NCBI RefSeq assembly: GCF_001956045.1
Contig: NZ_MRTH01000014.1
Location: 1 to 64,000, forward strand
Origin: Paenibacillus sp. FSL H7-0331
GTDB lineage: Bacteria; Bacillota; Bacilli; Paenibacillales; NBRC-103111
Reading direction: 5' to 3'
Length of the DNA stretch: 64,000 nt
Positions within the stretch are counted from its first letter, which is position 1. Each line of letters begins with the position of its first letter. The position numbers and the translations under genes are program-made. The notes under the pieces are model-generated. The model saw nothing but the letters and a program-made list of their open reading frames with translations, was not told where the DNA came from and ran no database searches. This document shows positions 17,846 through 30,900 of this stretch, piece by piece.

Positions 17846-20551
17846 CTAATCCTGATACACATAGAATGTAACGGTGTTATATAATGAGCCATTTGCTTTG
17901 TTCTTCAATCCATTAATTTCCAGTTTGTATTCGCCCGGAATTCTTGTAGCGCTGTACTTAAATGCTGCATATGTCGTATCAATAACTGTGTAGGTTGCAG
18001 TTACAACCGTTCCATTACTTGTAAATGTAGCACCGCTAAAATCAAGCGTTGTCGACAAGTTTTCGCTAAATCCTACAATTAAGTAATCCGCAGCGTTACC
18101 TGCTGCAATATGGAATGCGCTAACACCACCAACATTATTCAATCCGCTATTTCCACTATATACCGAACCAGAAACAGTAGCAGTAGTGTTGTAAGTTAGA
18201 TAAGTTACCGTAGTTACTGAATTTGAAGCTTTAACAGTAACTTGGAATTCTTTAGTACCAGAATTGCTGCCGCTGCTAACAGTAGCTGTTAATGTTACTA
18301 CTGTGTCAGCTGCTTGCCGCACTACAACACCTGTGTTGCTAACCACAGCCGTGTTCGAGGAAGACCATGTAATGGTTGTTCCATTTGCTGCGTCTGTTGT
18401 TGCGAGAGTAAGGTTTTGTGTAACCGAAGTAGCTGAATCACCAGAAGTATAACCAATTACTAGCGCATTAATACTTGCAGCCACAGCTGTTTCTGAATTT
18501 CCAGTAGCTTTAACAAGAACAGTGAAAGCTTTAGTTGCAGTAATCGAACCCTTACTAATTGTCGCCGTCAAAGTTACAGATGTGTCAGCTGTCGGACGCG
18601 TAATAGTACCGTCGTTGCCAACTACAGCCGTGTTCGAAGATGACCATGTAACGGTTGTTCCATTAACACCTGTTGTTGGCAAGTTAAGATTGCTTTTAAC
18701 GGATGTAGCTGAATCACCATTTGCATAACCAATTGCCAATGCGTCTTTAGTTGCATTTACATCAGCATTATCAGGTGATACTTCAACCTTACCGCCACCC
18801 ACACTGATGATTATAGAGATAGCCGCAACTTTATCTGTATCACCAGTCAATATGATCGTGATAGTTACTGTAAATGCTACAATATTGACAGTTGAAGACA
18901 CATTCAAGGCAAAGCTTGGTACTGTGGAACTTGCGGATACCTTAGAAATAGTCCCCGCGCCATCCAACGATACCTTGATATTTGCTGTAACTACCAAAGA
19001 TTTTAATGTAGAGCCTGTCTGCGTTTTTACATTCGTGTTTGCACCCAGGTTCAATGCTGCCACGGAAGTGCTGCCACCTCCAGTTGTTGGAGCATTTACA
19101 TTAATATTTACATTAACTGCCAGACTAGTCACGTAGACGGCATCTGTAATCGTACCTCTAAGTTGAACTTCTTTGCCTGCAGCTCCCGCTCCGATATTGA
19201 TATTACCAAAGCTACCTTTAGTTGCTTCAATAATGGCACCGGAACCTACATAAGTGCTAGCTATTACTGTAGTTCCCTCTGTTACAACACGAACCAATGC
19301 TGTTTGGGACGCGTTAGTATCAATTTTCAATTCTACTACAATAACAATATTAACTAATTTAATAGAATTAGGGCTACCCGAAGCAACGACGATATTGTCC
19401 GCTTCAATGTTTCTGAGCGTAATTTCGCCTGTCTCACCAGGATCAAGGGTCAAAGTTCCTTTAACTATGGTCTTGGAACCATCAGCAGGACCATAAGTAT
19501 CACTTGCAGTTAATCTGATATTTTTATACGTAATACCGCCGTTTGCGAGCAACTGCTTATCTGCTACTGAATTATTGGAGCTACCACTGCTGCTGCTGCT
19601 TCCGCTTCCGCCAGTTGCTGCACCAGTTACCGTAATGCCTGTGTCTTTGCCTAAGTAGCTAAGCTTATATACAGTTCCGCCTGTTTGCAAACTAGTTGTT
19701 AAAACAACTACCGTTGTGCTTCCGGATTTCAACTCTGCTTTGGTAACTGTCAAGCTGTTATCAAATGTGAAATCGGATGCAGACACTGTACCTACTGCTT
19801 GATTGAAGGTCACTTCTACTGTTGTATTGTTCGTTACGACAGCGGAGCTGACAGCTAATGTTCCAACAGCAAGCGCTTTTGCCTTAGTGATGATAGAGTC
19901 CTTGTTGTTCTTGAACTCATAGGCCAGACGAGCAACCGCTTGTCTTTCCGAGTTGTCTTTAGGACTGAATTTGACAGAGCCTGCTCCATCGTCAATCCCT
20001 TGCAAGAAGCCTACTTTGAAAGCAAGCGATACATGAGCTTTAGCCCAATCGGAAATGGTATTCAGATCGGATACCTTGGCATCAACAGCTACCTTGGTTG
20101 CTGTTTCCTCAAGACCTAGAGCGCGTATAAAGAATACAGCCAGCTCTTCTCTTGTTACTTTAGCATCAGGAGCAAATGTTGTTGCTGAATTACCTTGTGT
20201 AATATTGGATTGAACCAAAGCTCCGACAAAACCTCTGTACCAGCTGTTTTTGTCTACGTCTGTGAAGGCAGCCGCTTGGTCCGGATTTTCTTTCAATCCA
20301 AGGGACAACACGAGGATTTTGGCCAATTCGGCACGGGTGATCGATTTACGGGGTTGAAAGCTTCCATCCTCGTAACCACTGATTATCCCACTATCGACCA
20401 AGCTTTGAATTTCCTTTTGCGCGTAGGAATCCGCGATGTCCTTCAATGGCACTGCTGCAGCGCCCCAAGCTAATGCAGGCAATAGCAAACTGAACAACAG
20501 CGTGAACACAAGAACAGAGCTGATCTTACTGCGTGCTTCTTTCAAAAACAT
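17846..20551 (-). CDS. Secreted SLH-domain surface protein with bacterial Ig-like repeats
   Basis: A 901 aa exported cell-surface protein. A signal peptide (VLVFTLLFSLLLPALAWGAA) is followed by three SLH repeats at about 35-220 (DIADSYAQKEIQSLVDSGII, FTDVDKNSWYRGFVGALVQS, VSDLNTISDWAKAHVSLAF) that anchor to pyruvylated secondary wall polymer. The middle (about 300-600) is Ser/Gly- and Thr/Val-rich and predicted beta-solenoid-like. Two Ig-like (BIG2-type) repeats follow at about 610-790, sharing VTWSSSNTAVV and TITWSSSNTAVV. The frame opens at 20587, but the ATG at 20551 has AGGAGGAG at ideal spacing. No enzymatic domain is visible; an S-layer, adhesion or scaffold role is inferred. Confidence 0.88.
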   Translation of the reverse strand: MFLKEARSKISSVLVFTLLFSLLLPALAWGAAAVPLKDIADSYAQKEIQSLVDSGIISGYEDGSFQPRKSITRAELAKILVLSLGLKENPDQAAAFTDVDKNSWYRGFVGALVQSNITQGNSATTFAPDAKVTREELAVFFIRALGLEETATKVAVDAKVSDLNTISDWAKAHVSLAFKVGFLQGIDDGAGSVKFSPKDNSERQAVARLAYEFKNNKDSIITKAKALAVGTLAVSSAVVTNNTTVEVTFNQAVGTVSASDFTFDNSLTVTKAELKSGSTTVVVLTTSLQTGGTVYKLSYLGKDTGITVTGAATGGSGSSSSSGSSNNSVADKQLLANGGITYKNIRLTASDTYGPADGSKTIVKGTLTLDPGETGEITLRNIEADNIVVASGSPNSIKLVNIVIVVELKIDTNASQTALVRVVTEGTTVIASTYVGSGAIIEATKGSFGNINIGAGAAGKEVQLRGTITDAVYVTSLAVNVNINVNAPTTGGGSTSVAALNLGANTNVKTQTGSTLKSLVVTANIKVSLDGAGTISKVSASSTVPSFALNVSSTVNIVAFTVTITIILTGDTDKVAAISIIISVGGGKVEVSPDNADVNATKDALAIGYANGDSATSVKSNLNLPTTGVNGTTVTWSSSNTAVVGNDGTITRPTADTSVTLTATISKGSITATKAFTVLVKATGNSETAVAASINALVIGYTSGDSATSVTQNLTLATTDAANGTTITWSSSNTAVVSNTGVVVRQAADTVVTLTATVSSGSNSGTKEFQVTVKASNSVTTVTYLTYNTTATVSGSVYSGNSGLNNVGGVSAFHIAAGNAADYLIVGFSENLSTTLDFSGATFTSNGTVVTATYTVIDTTYAAFKYSATRIPGEYKLEINGLKNKANGSLYNTVTFYVYQD

Positions 20552-20704
20552 TGTTTCTCCTCCTCTTATTCTTTTGTCAATGAACATGGATCATCCAGTA
20601 AATGTGCAGCCTCCGAACAGAAAAGGGTTTACACATATTTACATGAATACATACATCATCTGTATCATACAATATCGGACCTTACAAAATTCTTACAAAA
20701 ATCA

Positions 20705-23543: not shown

Positions 23544-23572
23544 TTAACAAAGGTCTGCATCCATGATATACT
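23544..23572 (+). promoter_or_regulatory. Promoter of the Dlt-like aminoacylation operon
   Basis: TTAACA (23544-23549) and TATACT (23567-23572) are spaced by exactly 17 bp, with an extended -10 (TGA before TATACT). It lies 40 bp upstream of the TTG start at 23612. No other strong promoter was found before the terminator at 30862, so the whole block 23612-30771 is likely one transcript. No operator or riboswitch-like structure was recognised in 23294-23543. Confidence 0.65.
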
Positions 23573-23611
23573 ATTTGAGTAGTTTAACCGAGTGAAAATT
23601 GAGGGGTTTTT

Positions 23612-26600
23612 TTGAAGTTAACCAAAGTCCGGATTACAGGTGCCGCTGTCGGTCTCCTGCTAATCCTTATCGCGTTTGTATGGCTTTTTGTTTCCAATAA
23701 GGATTTGTCGATTCACATGGTCTATGTCACAAAGGGCGACAGCTTCGATACCGCGGCATTCGGACAGCTGAACCAGTCATTAGTTGCCAATTTACAGCTG
23801 GAACGACAGCCCCTCGATAAGCTAAGCTTACGGCAATTAAAAGCTTTTCATACCGTATACGTAGATCCTTCTCTACATGGAGCTTTATCCGTACAGCAGG
23901 TCGATATGCTGCAAAGCTATGTATCCCAAGGCGGACATTTGTTCCTTGAAAATGGTTTGGCATCTGATTTTCCATTAGATTTTATTGGCGCTAAACAATT
24001 GGTGGGACTCGCTCCACCAGATAAGATGAAGGCAAGTACACAGCCTCAAGAGGCGGGCTGGTCATCCTTCCAGTATCCCGAGGTCGAGCTGAATTTGCAG
24101 GCTATCCAGCAGTTATTCCGTCAGTTTACTGATAATTACCTGCAGCATGACGGGTTGGCTGATCTAGGTCGTTTTTCATGGGGACAAGGCTTGCTCGTAT
24201 CTACGGCTGAACCGATCGTTACACTGAACGATACGACATTGTTTGCTTTGAACCGATATGGACAAGGGACCGTGTTTGTCAGCAGTGCCCTGCTGCCTAA
24301 TCGCTATTATATTACAGGCTATGATTTGGCTGGCGGTATGGACGCAGCGCTGGGCTTCACCAAGCTTGCCGAGACGATGAACAGCAGCAATAAGCCTGCC
24401 TCTGGCGCCTTATATTTTGATCGCAGCCAACTGCCCTTGGCGCCTTATTTTCATTTCACCTTCTCTACAGGCAGCGCGCTGCTTCGCAGTGAATATGCTG
24501 CGTTTGTGTCCAAGGAGACGTTCGGCTACAGTGTAAAAAAAGTGCTTGGACCTTATGGCCGGCCTGCGATGGCCCATCAAAATCATTTTGAAGCAATTGA
24601 AGCGATTCGGGATGGTGAAGGCATTCAATGGGCGGAATTATTGAAGAAATACAATCAGCTTCCGTCGTTTTCACTCGTTCGCTCCTCTTTCCATTGGGGG
24701 CTGTGGCAGGAATCCGTTGCCGTTCACCTAAATACAGGTACGAACGAAAAACCTGCTTTTGTTGGTGAAACGGTGAATTCGTTTTATTCCAGCGGCACTC
24801 GTCTCATCAGCGAGGGACGTCCCATTCAGCTGGCACGTGATCCCAACTATCACTCACTGGGAGATGCCTTCCAGGAACCGTATCGTGCCTACCCGACCCT
24901 GGCGGATCTTAATGGCGATGGGCTGCCAGAGCTGATTGTCGGGTCATCTGACGGATCGGTCTATGTCTACCCTAACTTAGGCTCACAGCCTGAGGCTTAT
25001 GCCGGGCAGGTGCTGCCGGAAAGCGCGGGCGCAGGTGAAGTGCGTAAGGGCACCAGCATCGCGGCGCCAGATGTCTTCGGGAAGCGGGAGCCACTTCGGC
25101 TGCTAAATGGGCAGCCGCTGCAGACTGGGTCATACGCAAGTGTAACCGCGTATGACCTGAATGCCGACGGTAGGCCGGATCTGATCCTCGGCCTATCGGA
25201 CGGCACGCTTGCCGTCGCCTATGGCGCAGCCGGCGGCGCGTTTACACCGCCTGCCCCGCTGCTTGCGGGCGGGCAGGTCATTCGTGCCGCAGCACCTGTG
25301 GCTGCGGCTGTCGGTGACACCACCGGCGACGGTGTACCCGACCTCATTGTCGGGGATGCCGCAGGCGGTGTAATGCTCTATCACGGCCATCGCGAAGCGG
25401 GCCGCGAGGGCGCCGCAGGCGCAGGCGGCGTTAACTCCGGCGCAGCCGGGCAGCCGCTTGCCTTTGAACCGGGCAGCCTGCTGTTCAGGCTGCCTGCGGC
25501 TTACGCCGCGCCATCGCTGCGCGATGTCAATGGCGATGGCCGACTCGAGCTTGTGGTCGGCAGCTCGGAAGGCGATCTGCGTGTGTATACGCAGCAAGCA
25601 AACGGTCAATGGCAGGCTGACGGCGTGCTGGAAGGCTCTACGCTGAACCAGCTCGGCAATCATGCGCTCGTCGGAGGGCATAATTCCGTGCCGCTATGGT
25701 ATGATCTGAATCACGACGGTAAAGATGATCTGATCGTCGGACAGCTCGAATTCGGGATGCCGACAACGGTAGATGATCCCAAGTTCCCTTACGCGGAGCA
25801 GCTGCAAGCTTTTATTCAATATAGTAAGGATCATTATCTCGAACTGTACCCGCATCTATTTGTCCATAATTTCACAAGCGATGCGCAGGAGAAAGAAGAG
25901 CTCGCACTGCATCGGCAGGCCTTTGATCGACTCGGTATTCCCTGGAAGATGCCGGGAACCAACCAACATACTTGGCGGATCAATAACCCTGATCCTACAC
26001 AGACGCTGCGTAACGAAAGGGATGCCGGAATATGGTTTAACTTCGGCTTTAGACCTGCCAACATCCCTAATGAGCCGCGGCTGGGCGTGCAGTACAATTG
26101 GGGAATGCCTTTCCTGATGACAGATTCCACATCCGGTCTGCCAAGTCAGCCACCTATGCTGCTGAGCACACCTGCACCTGTACTTCGTCTTGATCCGCAG
26201 TATACGACGGAGGATTTGTTCGATTCCTATATTACCCAGGATATGCCGATTGATTATTTCGAGCATATCGAATATCATTTTCCAAGCCGAGTTGGCGAGC
26301 TGCTCGAATTTGTGAAATTTTTGGATCAAATTCGCAATCAGCACAGCTACAACTTTATGTCAGAGACGCAAATGGCGCGTTCAGTCCTTAATACCTTGAC
26401 AACACAGGTAACCGTTTATCGTCCTTGGAGTGAAGTCGTTTTCGATCGAATCAAGCATTTGTTCGGTATGCGTACAGAACCTACGATTCGCATCAAACCG
26501 CTAACGCAAGGCGTGCCTGAACAGGCGGCCGAATACAAAGGAACACTTGGTGTTTCCATTGAGCGTGGTCAAGCCTATGCAGATCGTCCATTGTCAACAG

Positions 26601-26956
26601 AATCGGATATTTCCGATTGGCGCAATGATAAGCTGTATGTAGGTGTTCCGTTAACTACACTCGTTCGCTTTGAGAATTCGAAGCCATCTAGTGACAATGC
26701 CGTCCCTATTGCTGACTATTCATTATCGACTTCCGGTCCGCATTTATTGCGCAGCAATGTGCCGTATACACTGCACAAGGCACCCAATGAGTGGAAGCTT
26801 GAGCTTCAATCGGACGGTATGCAGCAAATACAGCTGAGAAGCGCAGTTCCCCTGAATATCGAAGGAGATCAGCTTCAGGTCGTGCAGCAGGATGGTAGCG
26901 ATCTGTATACCGTAACCCATTTTGGCGCAGCAACGACGATTCTTATTCATTATTAA
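23612..26956 (+). CDS. Membrane-anchored protein with FG-GAP repeat propeller, head of Dlt-like operon
   Basis: An 1114 aa protein of unrecognised overall family. The N-terminus has one membrane anchor (AVGLLLILIAFVWLFVS, about 12-29). About 30-260 looks like a GATase/Rossmann-type domain (YVSQGGHLFLENGLASDF). Five FG-GAP/VCBS calcium-loop repeats follow with DxNxDG motifs near residues 431 (DLNGDGLPEL), 515 (DLNADGRPDL), 570 (DTTGDGVPDL), 638 (DVNGDGRLEL) and 700 (DLNHDGKDDL), forming a beta-propeller on the outer face. The flanks (about 265-420 and 720-960) have TIM-barrel or polysaccharide-deacetylase-like features, so the propeller may be inserted into an enzyme domain; that is a guess. 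The propeller DNA is GC-rich, with a Gly/Ala-rich loop near 25400. Start TTG with GAGGGG upstream. First gene of the operon, 60 bp before the carrier gene. Confidence 0.75.
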   Translation: MKLTKVRITGAAVGLLLILIAFVWLFVSNKDLSIHMVYVTKGDSFDTAAFGQLNQSLVANLQLERQPLDKLSLRQLKAFHTVYVDPSLHGALSVQQVDMLQSYVSQGGHLFLENGLASDFPLDFIGAKQLVGLAPPDKMKASTQPQEAGWSSFQYPEVELNLQAIQQLFRQFTDNYLQHDGLADLGRFSWGQGLLVSTAEPIVTLNDTTLFALNRYGQGTVFVSSALLPNRYYITGYDLAGGMDAALGFTKLAETMNSSNKPASGALYFDRSQLPLAPYFHFTFSTGSALLRSEYAAFVSKETFGYSVKKVLGPYGRPAMAHQNHFEAIEAIRDGEGIQWAELLKKYNQLPSFSLVRSSFHWGLWQESVAVHLNTGTNEKPAFVGETVNSFYSSGTRLISEGRPIQLARDPNYHSLGDAFQEPYRAYPTLADLNGDGLPELIVGSSDGSVYVYPNLGSQPEAYAGQVLPESAGAGEVRKGTSIAAPDVFGKREPLRLLNGQPLQTGSYASVTAYDLNADGRPDLILGLSDGTLAVAYGAAGGAFTPPAPLLAGGQVIRAAAPVAAAVGDTTGDGVPDLIVGDAAGGVMLYHGHREAGREGAAGAGGVNSGAAGQPLAFEPGSLLFRLPAAYAAPSLRDVNGDGRLELVVGSSEGDLRVYTQQANGQWQADGVLEGSTLNQLGNHALVGGHNSVPLWYDLNHDGKDDLIVGQLEFGMPTTVDDPKFPYAEQLQAFIQYSKDHYLELYPHLFVHNFTSDAQEKEELALHRQAFDRLGIPWKMPGTNQHTWRINNPDPTQTLRNERDAGIWFNFGFRPANIPNEPRLGVQYNWGMPFLMTDSTSGLPSQPPMLLSTPAPVLRLDPQYTTEDLFDSYITQDMPIDYFEHIEYHFPSRVGELLEFVKFLDQIRNQHSYNFMSETQMARSVLNTLTTQVTVYRPWSEVVFDRIKHLFGMRTEPTIRIKPLTQGVPEQAAEYKGTLGVSIERGQAYADRPLSTESDISDWRNDKLYVGVPLTTLVRFENSKPSSDNAVPIADYSLSTSGPHLLRSNVPYTLHKAPNEWKLELQSDGMQQIQLRSAVPLNIEGDQLQVVQQDGSDLYTVTHFGAATTILIHY

Positions 26957-27016
26957 TCGGTGCCAGCCGCCTTTATACTTAGTTATCAGAACTGCCCAAA
27001 CAAGGAGGAAACCCAC

Positions 27017-27268
27017 ATGCAAGACCTGCTTTCCCAGTTAGAATCGCATATCCGCAATCGCTACGAAATAGAAGCCGATGACGATGAGTTTACCCCAGAT
27101 GTCCATCTGTTCGATTACGGCTATGTGGACTCCATCGGCGCTACGGCGTTAATTGCCCATATCGAGCAAACGTATGGCATTCAGGTGACGAATCAGGACC
27201 TGATGCTGTATTCTATGAATACCGTGCGTGAAATCGCCGACTTCATCCAAAAAAAGACTGCGAGGTAA
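27017..27268 (+). CDS. Acyl carrier protein, DltC-like (partner of aminoacyl-CP ligase)
   Basis: An 83 aa acidic four-helix carrier protein. The phosphopantetheine-binding serine is S39 in YVDSIGA (motif DSx at the start of helix II). The rest (LIAHIEQTYGIQVTNQDLML, VREIADFI) follows the carrier fold. By context it carries an activated amino acid as a thioester. The frame opens at 26960, but AAGGAGG at ideal spacing marks the ATG at 27017. Six bases separate its stop from the ligase gene, which fits a dedicated carrier-ligase pair. Confidence 0.9.
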   Translation: MQDLLSQLESHIRNRYEIEADDDEFTPDVHLFDYGYVDSIGATALIAHIEQTYGIQVTNQDLMLYSMNTVREIADFIQKKTAR

Positions 27269-27274
27269 TGACCT

Positions 27275-28471
27275 ATGGAATGCGTCGTTTCTCTCGAAGG
27301 GCTGGCACTAAGCCAGCATGGCCAGCTGAAATACGCGGCCGCCTTCATCGACGAGCAAATTCGCGATATCCGGCTTGAAAATAATCATATTCATATTGTC
27401 CATGAATCACCCAAAGGCGATGCTGCGATTGAAGCACAAGTACGCCGCTTGATCGAACGTTTTTCACATGGTGATTTTGGCTTCAAAGAAAATATTTTGT
27501 TCGAGCAAAAGGTGAACACGCCCTATGAAGGCGATATTATTGCCGAGCTCGTAGACCGCAAAATCATCAAGGTTCTGGAGGAAGGCCTGTTCATTTTCCG
27601 TGAACCGTTTTCCAGTCTGATGCGCTTTTTTGACTATTCGTTCGTCTCTAAGGTCGGCAATCGCTTCGAAGGCATCAAAGAAGAGTCCTATCCCGCCGTT
27701 ATTCATTGCGAAACACTGAATAAAACGAACCATTTTACTTCGTTTCCCGAGCATATCCATTTCTTGACACACCTGCGTGAGGATTTGGACATTATTGAAG
27801 CCTTTTCACAATCCATTCGGGAGTCCGGTGGCTGGAAGTCAGATGCTCCGCTCGATATGAACACTACGATGCCATCACCAAAGTTCACGATGAACCCTTC
27901 GACCTGCTATCACTGTTATGAGGGCTTGCAAAATGAAACGCTGGAGGGTGACGGTCTTATCGTTTCCGCTATTTCCAAATGCCATCGCTTTGAATCTCGT
28001 AACCACAGCGATTTTGGACGTTTGCTGGATTTCAGCATGCGCGAAATTATTTTTGTCGGTAAACCTGAGTTTGTTAAGGAAAACCGCCTGCGCGCTATCG
28101 AGTATATGAAAGAATTAGCTGTCGAGTGGAATGTTGACTGTATGCTTGAAATTGCCAATGATCCTTTTTTTACCAATGATTTTCAAACAAAGGCTTCTTT
28201 TCAACGCAATCAGGAGATGAAATATGAGCTGCGTCTGACGATACCCCACATTAAAAAATCGATTGCCTGCGGATCGATTAATTTCCACAGCAACACGTTC
28301 GGCAATGCCTTTCAAATTAAAATGGGTAAACGTCCCGCTGTTACCGGCTGTGTAGGCTTCGGGATTGAACGCTGGACTTTTGCCTTCCTGGCACAGTTTG
28401 GGTTGGATGAAGCCGATTGGCCGGCAACGTTCCGCGAACAGTATCACGCTTGGCAGCAAAAGTCTCTGTAA
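27275..28471 (+). CDS. Class II aminoacyl-tRNA-synthetase-like amino acid:[carrier protein] ligase
   Basis: A 398 aa protein whose C-terminal 190 residues carry class II synthetase motifs. Motif 2 is at 236-262 (KCHRFESRNH ... FSMREIIFVG) and motif 3 at 358-368 (GCVGFGIERWT, with Glu365-Arg366). A C-x2-C segment (PSTCYHCYEGL, C211/C214), the MRE glutamate (E257) and C332 (SIACGSINF) resemble the Cys/Glu/Cys zinc ligands of atypical SerRS and of the Bradyrhizobium-type amino acid:[carrier protein] ligases, which activate glycine or alanine with ATP and load it on a carrier phosphopantetheine. It has no tRNA-binding domain, so tRNA charging is unlikely. The N-terminal 190 residues have no recognised motif. 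GAGGT precedes the ATG. It stands where DltA would be expected; the amino acid specificity is unknown. Confidence 0.82.
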   Translation: MECVVSLEGLALSQHGQLKYAAAFIDEQIRDIRLENNHIHIVHESPKGDAAIEAQVRRLIERFSHGDFGFKENILFEQKVNTPYEGDIIAELVDRKIIKVLEEGLFIFREPFSSLMRFFDYSFVSKVGNRFEGIKEESYPAVIHCETLNKTNHFTSFPEHIHFLTHLREDLDIIEAFSQSIRESGGWKSDAPLDMNTTMPSPKFTMNPSTCYHCYEGLQNETLEGDGLIVSAISKCHRFESRNHSDFGRLLDFSMREIIFVGKPEFVKENRLRAIEYMKELAVEWNVDCMLEIANDPFFTNDFQTKASFQRNQEMKYELRLTIPHIKKSIACGSINFHSNTFGNAFQIKMGKRPAVTGCVGFGIERWTFAFLAQFGLDEADWPATFREQYHAWQQKSL

Positions 28472-28574
28472 ATTCTCACTCGTTATGCATTATGATGCAC
28501 AAGCTCGCTGACGTAATCACTAATCAATTACGTACTATAAATTCTTTATCACTAAACAAAGATGTGGGTTCCTT

Positions 28575-29498
28575 ATGAAACTGATCGCCTTTTTCCGTAA
28601 AAACAGCTTCGTGCTGCTGCTGCTCGCCGCTTTTGTGCTATCGGACGTTCTGATCTCGATGTGGGACCCGATGGTCACCTCGCGGCGTTTTTACAAAAAT
28701 GACTTTACCAAAACCTTATATCATCACGGCTGGCTGGATCATGGACCGGTTTTCTTCGGAAATTCCTCCGTCACAGGTGCCTATATCGAAGAGCAATCCA
28801 AATCGGGGCTCATTGAGCTGGGACTGTCCTACGGGAAGCTAACCGACCTGCAGGCGCTGCTGGAGCGGCAGCTTTTTCATGTCAAGGATCAGCTTGTTAT
28901 AGCCATTGACGTACATACGATGATCGACAGTCTGGAAACGGACCCGACCTATCAGTGGTTCAAGCCCTGGTACCAGCCCTATGTGTATACTTATCGCGAC
29001 TATTTTCGGGATTCCGGCAGTGAAGCCGTTCGGCAGCTGTATGAGGGCACACTGGAGCTGAACCGCTCCAAGCTGTTCGCTTACGTGCCTCGTTGGATTG
29101 ATAAGGAGCTTTATTATGGCAAAAAAGCCGATGATGAGCTGAAGACCAAATGGGATGATTACGAGCGCCGCTTCGGCTGGATGTCACAGCCTGACTACAA
29201 AGATAATTTACAGGCACTCGATTCTATTTTGCGATATGCCGATGATCACAAGCTGCCTGTACGTGTGATCTGGATGCCCTGGAATCCGGCGTATCCGGTT
29301 CCCAAATATATGGCAGGCATACAAACCACAGTGAATCAAAAGCTCGCTCAGCATCAGGTTCCTGTGCTGGATCTGCTAAGTACCTACAAGCCTGCGCAGT
29401 TTCATGATCTCGTCCATTTGAGCCGTGAAGTCGGGGCTCCCGTATTCACCAAGGAGGTTGACGCATGGCTCCAATCCCTCGCAAAATCGTCGAAGTAA
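28575..29498 (+). CDS. DltD/SGNH-like membrane-anchored acyltransferase
   Basis: A 307 aa protein with an N-terminal signal anchor (VLLLLAAFVLSDVLIS, about 13-29) and an outside domain with SGNH-hydrolase features. Block I is FGNSSVTGAY (serines 64 and 65), and the C-terminal DxxH pair is HDLVHLS (D278, H281), as in DltD and AlgJ/AlgX-type proteins. DltD takes the acyl group relayed by DltX and transfers it to the wall polymer, so the same role is inferred here. The carboxy-terminal 34 nt overlap the next small gene in another frame, a sign of coupling. A 103-bp gap separates it from the ligase gene. The ribosome site before the ATG is weak (GATGTGGG). The target polymer is unknown. Confidence 0.82.
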   Translation: MKLIAFFRKNSFVLLLLAAFVLSDVLISMWDPMVTSRRFYKNDFTKTLYHHGWLDHGPVFFGNSSVTGAYIEEQSKSGLIELGLSYGKLTDLQALLERQLFHVKDQLVIAIDVHTMIDSLETDPTYQWFKPWYQPYVYTYRDYFRDSGSEAVRQLYEGTLELNRSKLFAYVPRWIDKELYYGKKADDELKTKWDDYERRFGWMSQPDYKDNLQALDSILRYADDHKLPVRVIWMPWNPAYPVPKYMAGIQTTVNQKLAQHQVPVLDLLSTYKPAQFHDLVHLSREVGAPVFTKEVDAWLQSLAKSSK

Positions 29499-29575
29499 TT
29501 GTGTATACGGTGATGCTCATTATTGTTTTGATCTATTTTACAGGTAAAGGATTGTTTATATACGAGGGGTTCTGA
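29465..29575 (+). CDS. DltX-like microprotein, 36 aa, nested at the end of the dltD-like gene
   Basis: A 36-codon ORF starting at ATG 29465, inside the end of the dltD-like gene and in a different frame. A perfect AAGGAGG lies seven bases upstream. It encodes one transmembrane helix (VIVYTVMLIIVLIYF, about residues 11-25) and ends GKGLFIYEGF. The last six residues fit the F-x-Y-x-x-F tail that defines DltX (family PF12459). In the Dlt pathway the tail tyrosine accepts D-alanine from the MBOAT protein before transfer by DltD; here Tyr33 would play that part. Its place directly before the MBOAT gene is as expected for a DltX partner. It is shorter than usual DltX (about 50 aa). Confidence 0.85.
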   Translation: MAPIPRKIVEVIVYTVMLIIVLIYFTGKGLFIYEGF

Positions 29576-29619
29576 GCCTCTTCAAGGCTCGGCCATCTTT
29601 CATTCAAGGGAGTCAGGTT

Positions 29620-30771
29620 ATGTGGTATTTGAACATGAACGCAGTCATGGCCATGTGTGGAATGATTCTCATTCTGGCGCTTACCCGCTGGTGGCCCCAC
29701 AATAAACGCATATTACTGCTGGCGTTCAACCTCAGCTTCCTGCTGGTGTTCAGCAAGAAGCTTTTTGTCTTTTACATCATCTATACGATTGTGAATTATA
29801 TCGCATTTCGATTCTTGTGTCAGACCACCTCCTGGCGCAGAGGCTGGTTCATTACTCTGATCACACTGAACATAGCTGGCGTTTGCGGAATGCGTATGTA
29901 CGGAATGCAAATATTTGAAAACCCGTTGTTCGATACGGTGATGCTGCTTGGTTTGATCTACAACGTGCTGAAGGTTATCGATGCGCATTATTTTGCTTAT
30001 TTTATCGGTAAAGATGCTCGTGCCGGGCTGATTGATTACGCTAACTATATTCTTTTCGTGCCGACCTTTACTTCAGGGCCTATTCTTAAATTCCGTGATT
30101 TTATGGCGGATACGAAACAGCCCTACAAGCTGACTTCATCGCAGGTTGAGGACAATGTCAAACGAATTATTATAGGGTTATTCAAAAAAATCGTAATCGT
30201 CACCTGGATGACCGACGTATTCAACCATATGCAGCAGGGTGAGCTCCATACGCATCAATCACTATTTCTGATGGTCTGGTTCTACGCGCTCATTTTTTTC
30301 GATTTCTCAGGTTATTCCGATATCGCCATCGGCTTTGGCCGCTTAATGGGCTATAATATTCCGGAAAATTTCAAAAAACCGTTCCAGTCGCCGACCTTGA
30401 CTCAATTTTGGCGCAATTGGCATGCAACACTAGGGGATTGGTTTCGCGAGCATATTTTCATGTTTTTTTCACGTCAAGCTCCAAGCAAAATGACAGCAGC
30501 AGGCTTGTCCATCCTCATTATGGTGCTGATTGGTCTCTGGCATGGCTTTAGCTGGCTCTACTTTTTCTACGGGCTTTATCACGGAATCGTCATCGCATTG
30601 GAAAATTTGCTTGGCAAATCGACAGTCAATAAGAAAAAGGTATCACGCACCTATTTTCTCGCCCGCTGCGCGCTCACCCAAGCCATTGTAACCTTCTCCG
30701 TCATTATCTACAGTGGTAACACCGAAACCGTATGGAAAATTTACCGCGGACTGTTTAATTGGCCTTTTTAA
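29620..30771 (+). CDS. MBOAT acyltransferase, DltB/AlgI-like
   Basis: A 383 aa polytopic membrane protein of the MBOAT family. Family hallmarks are FFDFSGYSDIAIGFGRLMGY (about 227-244), the conserved FWRNWHATLGDWFREHIF (H268, about 263-280) and the catalytic-histidine motif LIGLWHGFSWLYF (H308). These correspond to the two conserved histidine segments of DltB. DltB hands an acyl group from a carrier-protein thioester on the inner face across the membrane to DltX. Here the carrier at 27017 and the microprotein at 29465 supply both partners. GGGAG precedes the ATG. Last gene of the operon, followed by a terminator. The AlgI branch transfers acetyl groups, so acetylation is possible, but the aminoacyl-carrier genes argue for an amino acid. 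Confidence 0.88.
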   Translation: MWYLNMNAVMAMCGMILILALTRWWPHNKRILLLAFNLSFLLVFSKKLFVFYIIYTIVNYIAFRFLCQTTSWRRGWFITLITLNIAGVCGMRMYGMQIFENPLFDTVMLLGLIYNVLKVIDAHYFAYFIGKDARAGLIDYANYILFVPTFTSGPILKFRDFMADTKQPYKLTSSQVEDNVKRIIIGLFKKIVIVTWMTDVFNHMQQGELHTHQSLFLMVWFYALIFFDFSGYSDIAIGFGRLMGYNIPENFKKPFQSPTLTQFWRNWHATLGDWFREHIFMFFSRQAPSKMTAAGLSILIMVLIGLWHGFSWLYFFYGLYHGIVIALENLLGKSTVNKKKVSRTYFLARCALTQAIVTFSVIIYSGNTETVWKIYRGLFNWPF

Positions 30772-30861
30772 CCGAATGCGAATAAAACTGACAGTCCGCT
30801 TGCTTGTTTTCAACCGGAAGAGATCCTTGATCCGGCTGTACTCCATTCTTTCCAAGTACCC

Positions 30862-30900
30862 AGAGTCTCTATCCGGTTATCCCGGATAAGAGACTCTTTT
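30862..30900 (+). terminator. Terminator of the Dlt-like operon
   Basis: AGAGTCTCTATCCGG and CCGGATAAGAGACTCT form a 15-bp stem with one bulge and a 4-nt loop, followed by TTTT; 90 bp after the MBOAT stop codon. Confidence 0.9.

Follow-up and report, generated by a model that had tools for sequence, protein, structure and literature searches.

A conserved Paenibacillus operon combining a class II synthetase-like amino acid:[carrier protein] ligase with genes of a putative Dlt-type relay

Results

Gene content of the operon

A 64,000-nucleotide stretch of Paenibacillus sp. FSL H7-0331 (contig NZ_MRTH01000014.1, positions 1 to 64,000, hereafter the window) contains six plus-strand genes that encode, in order, an FG-GAP protein, a carrier protein, a ligase resembling class II aminoacyl-tRNA synthetases, an SGNH-like protein, a microprotein and an MBOAT (Table 1). 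An earlier note on this DNA had described the last five as a Dlt-like envelope aminoacylation operon in which the ligase replaces DltA. All five were found on the plus strand where that note had placed them, whereas the FG-GAP gene, which lies upstream on the same strand and is conserved together with the others, was missing from its list. The note also described one promoter and one terminator. The terminator was borne out by a hairpin whose stability was reached by none of 200 shuffles, and which a simple scan of the region did not pick up. The promoter is only a consensus match, and a scan of the region found 17 such sites against 10.1 expected; since this signal is weak, the promoter site was not used as support.

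Table 1. Features of the operon in the window (positions are those of the window)
Feature	Position	Strand	Evidence or remark
Promoter-like site TTAACA-17-TATACT, TG preceding the second hexamer	23544..23572	+	Consensus match only, 10/12
FG-GAP beta-propeller protein, 1114 amino acids (aa), TTG start	23612..26956	+	Anchored, with a single hydrophobic stretch near the N-terminus (residues 8-26)
Carrier protein, 83 aa, phosphopantetheine site D38-S39-I40-G41	27017..27268	+	PF00550 4e-13
Class II aminoacyl-tRNA-synthetase-like amino acid:[carrier protein] ligase (putative), 398 aa	27275..28471	+	NF005479, 3mey relatives, zinc-ligand positions
SGNH-hydrolase-like protein, 307 aa, N-terminal hydrophobic stretch	28575..29498	+	Invariant S64, D278, H281
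DltX-like 36-aa membrane microprotein, ends FIYEGF, overlaps the SGNH gene end, AAGGAGG upstream	29465..29575	+	MAPIPRKIVEVIVYTVMLIIVLIYFTGKGLFIYEGF
DltB-like MBOAT, 383 aa, H268 and H308 invariant	29620..30771	+	TIGR04091, DltB structures
Intrinsic-terminator-like hairpin, short T run	about 30862..30897	+	-23.2 kcal/mol, z -5.4

By hydropathy analysis, the microprotein has a single hydrophobic stretch, the SGNH and FG-GAP proteins each have one near the N-terminus, the MBOAT has several, and the ligase and carrier lack them, a pattern that fits a relay from the cytoplasm to the outside.

Conservation of the cassette

Scanning one genome per species, across 84,980 species, with an alignment of the ligase returned 93 relatives, and 80 of these were used (78 named Paenibacillus, one Paenibacillaceae bacterium and one Gordonibacillus). 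Together with L117 and L118, from further genomes of the order, they made up the 82 loci examined, and whole-genome tests were made on the relatives' genomes. The five-gene neighbourhood that the earlier note had proposed to search for proved conserved, together with the FG-GAP gene: all six genes occurred in order on one strand, with gaps between matches below 1 kb, in 76 of the 82 loci, where carrier and ligase are a median of 11 bases apart and the median gap from the SGNH gene to the microprotein is -31. At L062, about 5 kb separates the microprotein from the MBOAT (L062:12211-17666). The MBOAT match is absent up to the contig end at L064 and absent at L068 and L076, where the contig stops within 650 and 20 bases, respectively; at L034 and L067, the best FG-GAP match is displaced or split. 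An FG-GAP relative lies upstream of the carrier gene in 80/80 loci. The protein alignments used below include the window and omit broken or short genes, covering 81 of the 82 loci for the carrier, the microprotein and the ligase, 80 for the SGNH protein and 78 for the MBOAT.

The cassette adjoins conserved genes, namely those for a U32 peptidase (70/82 loci) and a TIM-barrel isomerase-like protein (73/82), uvrA (72/82) and uvrB (63/82), and these constant chromosomal neighbours point to vertical inheritance of the block. The ligase was found in 96 of the 104 genomes of the family of genome G001 and in 126 of 344 genomes of the order (E 1e-10, distant types counted). Among 398 genomes of a phylum sample, it appeared in two, G001 itself and one carrying a distant type.

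The ligase and the carrier protein

The nearest solved structures of the ligase were chains of amino acid--[acyl-carrier-protein] ligase 1 (3mey, 1.6e-27), followed by archaeal-type seryl-tRNA synthetases (3w3s, 1.1e-21). The zinc-ligand positions align with C211, E257 and C359, which are conserved in 82, 82 and 81 rows out of 82, the window among them; the zinc-binding residues of 3mey and the roles of the active-site residues in the solved enzyme are presumed ones. The other inspected active-site positions are conserved in at least 81 of the 82 rows, with the exception of residue 361, which is G in 80 rows and A in two, and A in the aligned sequence of the solved ligase. A glycine here suggests a somewhat larger pocket than in the solved glycine ligase, if the position has the role presumed for it, and no amino acid is claimed for the ligase on this basis.

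A carrier gene lies near the ligase in 80/80 loci, always with the motif DS, a hydrophobic residue and G, and D38, S39 and G41 of the carrier are invariant in 82 rows.

A tree of 43 ligases, for which the program warned of long branches among the 20 non-cassette rows, separated the 23 cassette ligases from all other rows by one branch (98/96). No cassette MBOAT was seen beside the 20 non-cassette ligases, 16 of which were checked by tblastn of the surrounding stretch and four by annotation. These 16 belong to a set of 18 ligase loci chosen from the order search, in which the remaining two, L117 and L118, are cassettes. Ten neighbours scanned at four of these 16 loci included an acyl-CoA dehydrogenase, an E1 dehydrogenase, a transketolase, an FtsX-like protein and a glycosyl hydrolase 88, the rest being CitG, ATP-grasp, ABC transporter and kinase-like proteins and one protein without a match. 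The earlier note had suggested that the operon would give ligases of this kind a plausible destination. This applies to the cassette clade only, given the order loci without the MBOAT and the different gene content of plasmid-borne clusters.

The distant ligases of the order (L109-L116 and L119-L126) are about 26-35% identical and have varied metabolic neighbours where scanned. At L112, an acyl-CoA dehydrogenase gene directly precedes the ligase gene, as in the proteobacterial cluster, and L123 holds two divergent ligase genes. Plasmid ligases of Azospirillum and Caballeronia (L133, L135 and L136) lie in a constant cluster of carrier, acyl-CoA dehydrogenase, ligase, DUF1839 and glycoside hydrolase family 2.

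The microprotein, MBOAT and SGNH protein

The MBOAT of the window ends in FNWPF without a shuttle motif, and the motif sits instead on the separate 36-aa gene. FXYXXF is the acyl shuttle motif of DltX according to passages of PMC12148441. Across the 82 loci (1,679,431 bases, both strands), the pattern F-x-Y-x-x-F-stop was matched 85 times, and 81 of these matches lay at the end of the SGNH gene. Each of the 81 sites closes a 36-codon open frame with GGAGG within 16 bases upstream, and the start of the frame lies 24 to 48 bases ahead of the SGNH stop-codon end in all but two cases, L067 and L079, where the SGNH frames are broken or longer. The last 24 codons gave a pN/pS of 0.24 over 14 loci, with synonymous sites near saturation, and Y14, G27, F31, Y33, E34 and F36 are invariant in 82 rows. 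The same pattern also recovered DltX at the front of dltA in 4/4 canonical dlt operons. By these sequence criteria, the microprotein is a real gene. In the Gordonibacillus locus (L068), the shuttle motif lies further downstream, at the end of a 234-residue frame whose first part is rich in Gly/Ser and of low complexity (L068:4176-4880).

The MBOAT matched PF03062 (1.4e-17), and its solved relatives up to E 1 were DltB chains alone (best E 3e-37). Its H268 and H308 are invariant in 79 rows and correspond in the alignment to the histidines within NRWH and FWHG of DltB. In the SGNH protein, the G-N-S and D-x-V-H blocks, which hold Ser64, Asp278 and His281, are invariant in 81 rows. Pfam GDSL matches were obtained for 6 of 33 SGNH members (best E 0.00095), and the window's own protein had no Pfam match up to E 1.

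Coexistence with canonical dlt operons

DltA was searched in 81 cassette-bearing genomes, 40 of them at E 0.001 and 41 at 1e-120, the genome of L071 being outside the sample. It was found in three genomes, G011 (596 bits), G018 (545 bits, narrowly missing the TIGR01734 cut-off and passing that of PRK04813) and G042 (588 bits), and not found in the other 78; the earlier note had proposed to test whether ligase and MBOAT occur together without DltA. Among the matches listed in the 40-genome search, the next best reached at most 330 bits and were mostly very long frames, as in multidomain synthetases. No dltA gene (TIGR01734) lay inside the cassette operon.

G011, G018 and G042, as well as G089, which was outside the DltA search, encode a DltB above cut-off located away from the cassette. 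These genomes carry canonical dlt operons (L127, L128, L129 and L130) with their own DltX at the front of dltA. The canonical stretches hold DltX, a DltA-sized frame beside DltB, a small LLDSFG frame, as in DltC, and DltD, with families tested at L127 and L128. A linked dltA supplying the cassette MBOAT, which the earlier note had named as evidence against its proposal, was not found in these relatives: each of the three genomes with DltA has its own separate dlt operon with a DltB. These separate operons indicate that the two systems can coexist without being joined.

The FG-GAP protein and candidate acceptors

The C-terminal part of the FG-GAP protein was matched by 160 proteins, and among the 120 listed the names were Paenibacillus or Paenibacillaceae, or none. 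Weak Pfam hints pointed to ThuA/DUF4159/DUF4350-like and DUF2194 parts. A DUF2194/deacetylase-like C-terminus was considered and dropped, since only three of the 35 members matched DUF2194 (best E 0.036) and the 10 C-terminal pieces scanned, which may not include those three, did not.

TagB/TagF-type enzymes were detected in 2 of 17 cassette-bearing genomes, one match being weak and partial, and in one of eight genomes without the ligase. No such polymerase was found in 15 of the 17, which makes a wall teichoic acid of the classical type less likely as the acceptor. LtaS/GacH-like phosphoglycerol transferases were present in both cassette-bearing genomes whose proteins were inspected, one with an NCBIfam LtaS match of 71 bits against a cut-off of 970, which makes a glycerol-phosphate polymer a possible acceptor.

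Discussion

The gene combination described here is real, conserved and not tied to DltA. We consider it probable, judging from gene content and conserved residues, that the operon joins a class II synthetase-like ligase and its carrier to a relay of DltB-like MBOAT, DltX-like peptide and SGNH protein that moves an amino acid onto an external polymer. Studied kin of the ligase use glycine or alanine. In the proposed pathway, a small amino acid, either glycine or an L-amino acid, would be adenylated by the ligase and then loaded onto the phosphopantetheine of the carrier. The MBOAT would next transfer the carrier-bound amino acid to Tyr33 in the FIYEGF peptide, and the SGNH protein would accept it on Ser64 and esterify it to the acceptor. 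In the Dlt pathway, as outlined in passages of PMC12148441, the MBOAT carries the amino acid from the carrier to the shuttle tyrosine and the SGNH protein accepts it on a serine. The residues for each relay step are invariant in the cassette, namely the carrier serine, the two MBOAT histidines, Tyr33 and the Ser64/Asp278/His281 set. We further lean, with somewhat more reserve, towards a second, independent route of envelope aminoacylation, which would place a glycyl or L-aminoacyl ester, not a D-alanyl ester, on a Paenibacillus surface polymer through a Dlt-type relay.

Several observations weigh against a Dlt-type relay fed by this ligase. The cassette resembles Dlt in parts, and the DltB, DltC and DltD models were matched only under their cut-offs: the MBOAT reached 180.4 bits (E 5.9e-53) with the DltB model TIGR04091, for a cut-off of 375; the carrier reached 23.4 bits with the DltC model TIGR01688, for a cut-off of 52.35 (this search and that with PF00550 were run with one additional front codon, 27014); and the SGNH protein reached 13.2 bits (E 0.041) with the DltD model TIGR04092, for a cut-off of 150. 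Likewise, the match of the ligase to the amino acid--[ACP] ligase family NF005479 (E 4.8e-44, 150.6 bits) did not attain the cut-off of 357. Pfam DltD was found in 3 of 33 SGNH members (best E 0.0014) and not in the window's own protein, and no DltD chain appeared among solved structures up to E 10. An hhalign comparison placed the D-x-V-H block on the D-x-x-H of DltD with E 5.5e-4 and a probability of 30%. We infer the link between the SGNH protein and DltD because of this profile alignment and the scattered Pfam matches; in the earlier note's DltD/SGNH-like label, the DltD half is weak. The Pfam DltX model matched 1 of 22 microprotein members (E 0.069). Moreover, vertical inheritance within one lineage makes the gene linkage one evolutionary observation and not many.

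The absence of DltA is also not specific to cassette-bearing genomes. A search that scored at most five candidates in each genome detected canonical DltB in only 4 of the 344 genomes sampled from the order, all four bearing the cassette. Lack of the Dlt system is therefore the norm in the order, and a missing DltA is no proof of replacement. Hence, the earlier statement that the ligase replaces DltA describes the operon, which contains no DltA, and agrees with most cassette-bearing genomes; it does not extend to an evolutionary replacement.

The same genes could instead serve two activities that share an operon only for co-regulation: the ligase and carrier would make a soluble, peptide-like metabolite, and an independent O-acyltransferase that takes acyl-CoA, as PatA/PatB do, would be formed by the MBOAT, microprotein and SGNH protein. 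The distant ligases of the order without an MBOAT, with their metabolic neighbours where scanned, agree with this view, as does a Streptomyces ligase located in a non-ribosomal peptide cluster, and PatA-type MBOATs take acyl-CoA according to passages of PMC12148441. We nevertheless find it unlikely. The solved relatives of the MBOAT are DltB only, and a separate shuttle peptide is tied only to the carrier-fed Dlt pathway in those passages of PMC12148441. Ligase and carrier also follow each other closely and share the block with the relay genes in 76 of the 82 loci, and the widely shared neighbours of the window (U32 peptidase, TIM-barrel isomerase-like protein, uvrA and uvrB) include no peptide synthesis gene, in a test that is blind to genes absent from the window. 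It seems highly improbable that the operon holds a tRNA synthetase, or an inactive remnant, beside neighbours that form a degenerate dlt operon, even though the ligase also matches the archaeal-type seryl-tRNA synthetase model PRK00960 at 144.3 bits. This score is far under the cut-off of 611, and the alignment with 3w3s starts at ligase residue 83 and synthetase residue 191, the N-terminal tRNA-binding part lying outside. Residue 316 is K in 82/82 rows, as it is in the carrier ligase aligned with them, and the 3w3s synthetase has S there; the catalytic positions are kept, and a standard seryl-tRNA synthetase is encoded elsewhere in 17/17 genomes tested.

A further possibility, which overlaps with the pathway proposed here, retains the relay and changes its destination: the acceptor would not be teichoic-acid-like, being either an exported polysaccharide or the FG-GAP protein of the operon itself. 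The presence of phosphoglycerol-transferase/LtaS-like proteins in both genomes checked and the lack of the DUF2194 hint in the C-terminal pieces scanned count against such an acceptor, whereas the scarcity of TagB/TagF enzymes, the constant FG-GAP gene upstream and the weak domain hints in its product count in its favour. We regard this possibility as tentative, yet substantial.

Compared with the Dlt pathway (DltX, DltA, DltB, DltC and DltD; teichoic acid D-alanylation), the cassette likewise unites a carrier, an MBOAT with both histidines kept, an FXYXXF microprotein and an SGNH-type protein in one operon. It differs in its loader, a class II synthetase-like enzyme as opposed to the adenylating enzyme DltA, in its shorter SGNH protein (307 aa, against lengths of 393 and 412 aa in two DltD proteins from this order), in the position of the microprotein gene, which follows the SGNH gene whereas DltX precedes dltA, and in the additional FG-GAP gene. 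PatA/PatB also combine an MBOAT and SGNH acyl relay with an FXYXXF-like shuttle motif; in contrast, the cassette shuttle is a separate peptide not fused to the MBOAT C-terminus, and the cassette includes a carrier protein and its likely loader.

In Bradyrhizobium and Agrobacterium, amino acid:[carrier protein] ligases were reportedly described by Mocibob et al. in 2010 and 2013. The cassette ligase resembles them in its class II core, the three zinc-ligand positions, the adjoining carrier gene and the absence of the archaeal-type tRNA-binding part. It is 25-34% identical to the 30 plasmid-borne relatives listed, has about 85 residues ahead of the aligned core and differs in its neighbours. The ligases of Mocibob et al. 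are cited in passages of PMC9437257 and PMC5370406. The nearest prior idea is the proposal contained in a note in PMC2922099, in which a ligase cluster with a dehydrogenase and a glycosidase is predicted to join an amino acid to a cell-surface sugar. This proteobacterial DUF1839/glycosidase cluster shares a synthetase-like ligase, a carrier and a proposed surface destination with the cassette; it differs in that no MBOAT, microprotein or SGNH gene is found among the annotated genes of three such clusters, and an amide ligase was proposed instead. The earlier note knew of no description of the cassette combination, and our search of open-licence full-text literature also found none, which is no proof of absence. 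What appears to be new here is a putative Dlt-type relay served by a loader of another class.

The operon would tie a synthetase-like carrier ligase to a membrane relay of known mechanism. If the proposed pathway is correct, carrier-loading relatives of synthetases would gain their first mechanistically specified destination, the Dlt relay would be modular with an exchangeable source of amino acid, and the resulting envelope modification, on which the open-licence literature search gave no report, would be common to a group of Paenibacillus species.

Elsewhere in the window, a large gene for an S-layer-homology (SLH) domain protein lies two genes upstream of the operon on the minus strand (17846-20587), with relatives in 9 of the 82 loci, and positions 1-75, also on the minus strand, correspond to the 5' end of a 16S rRNA gene.

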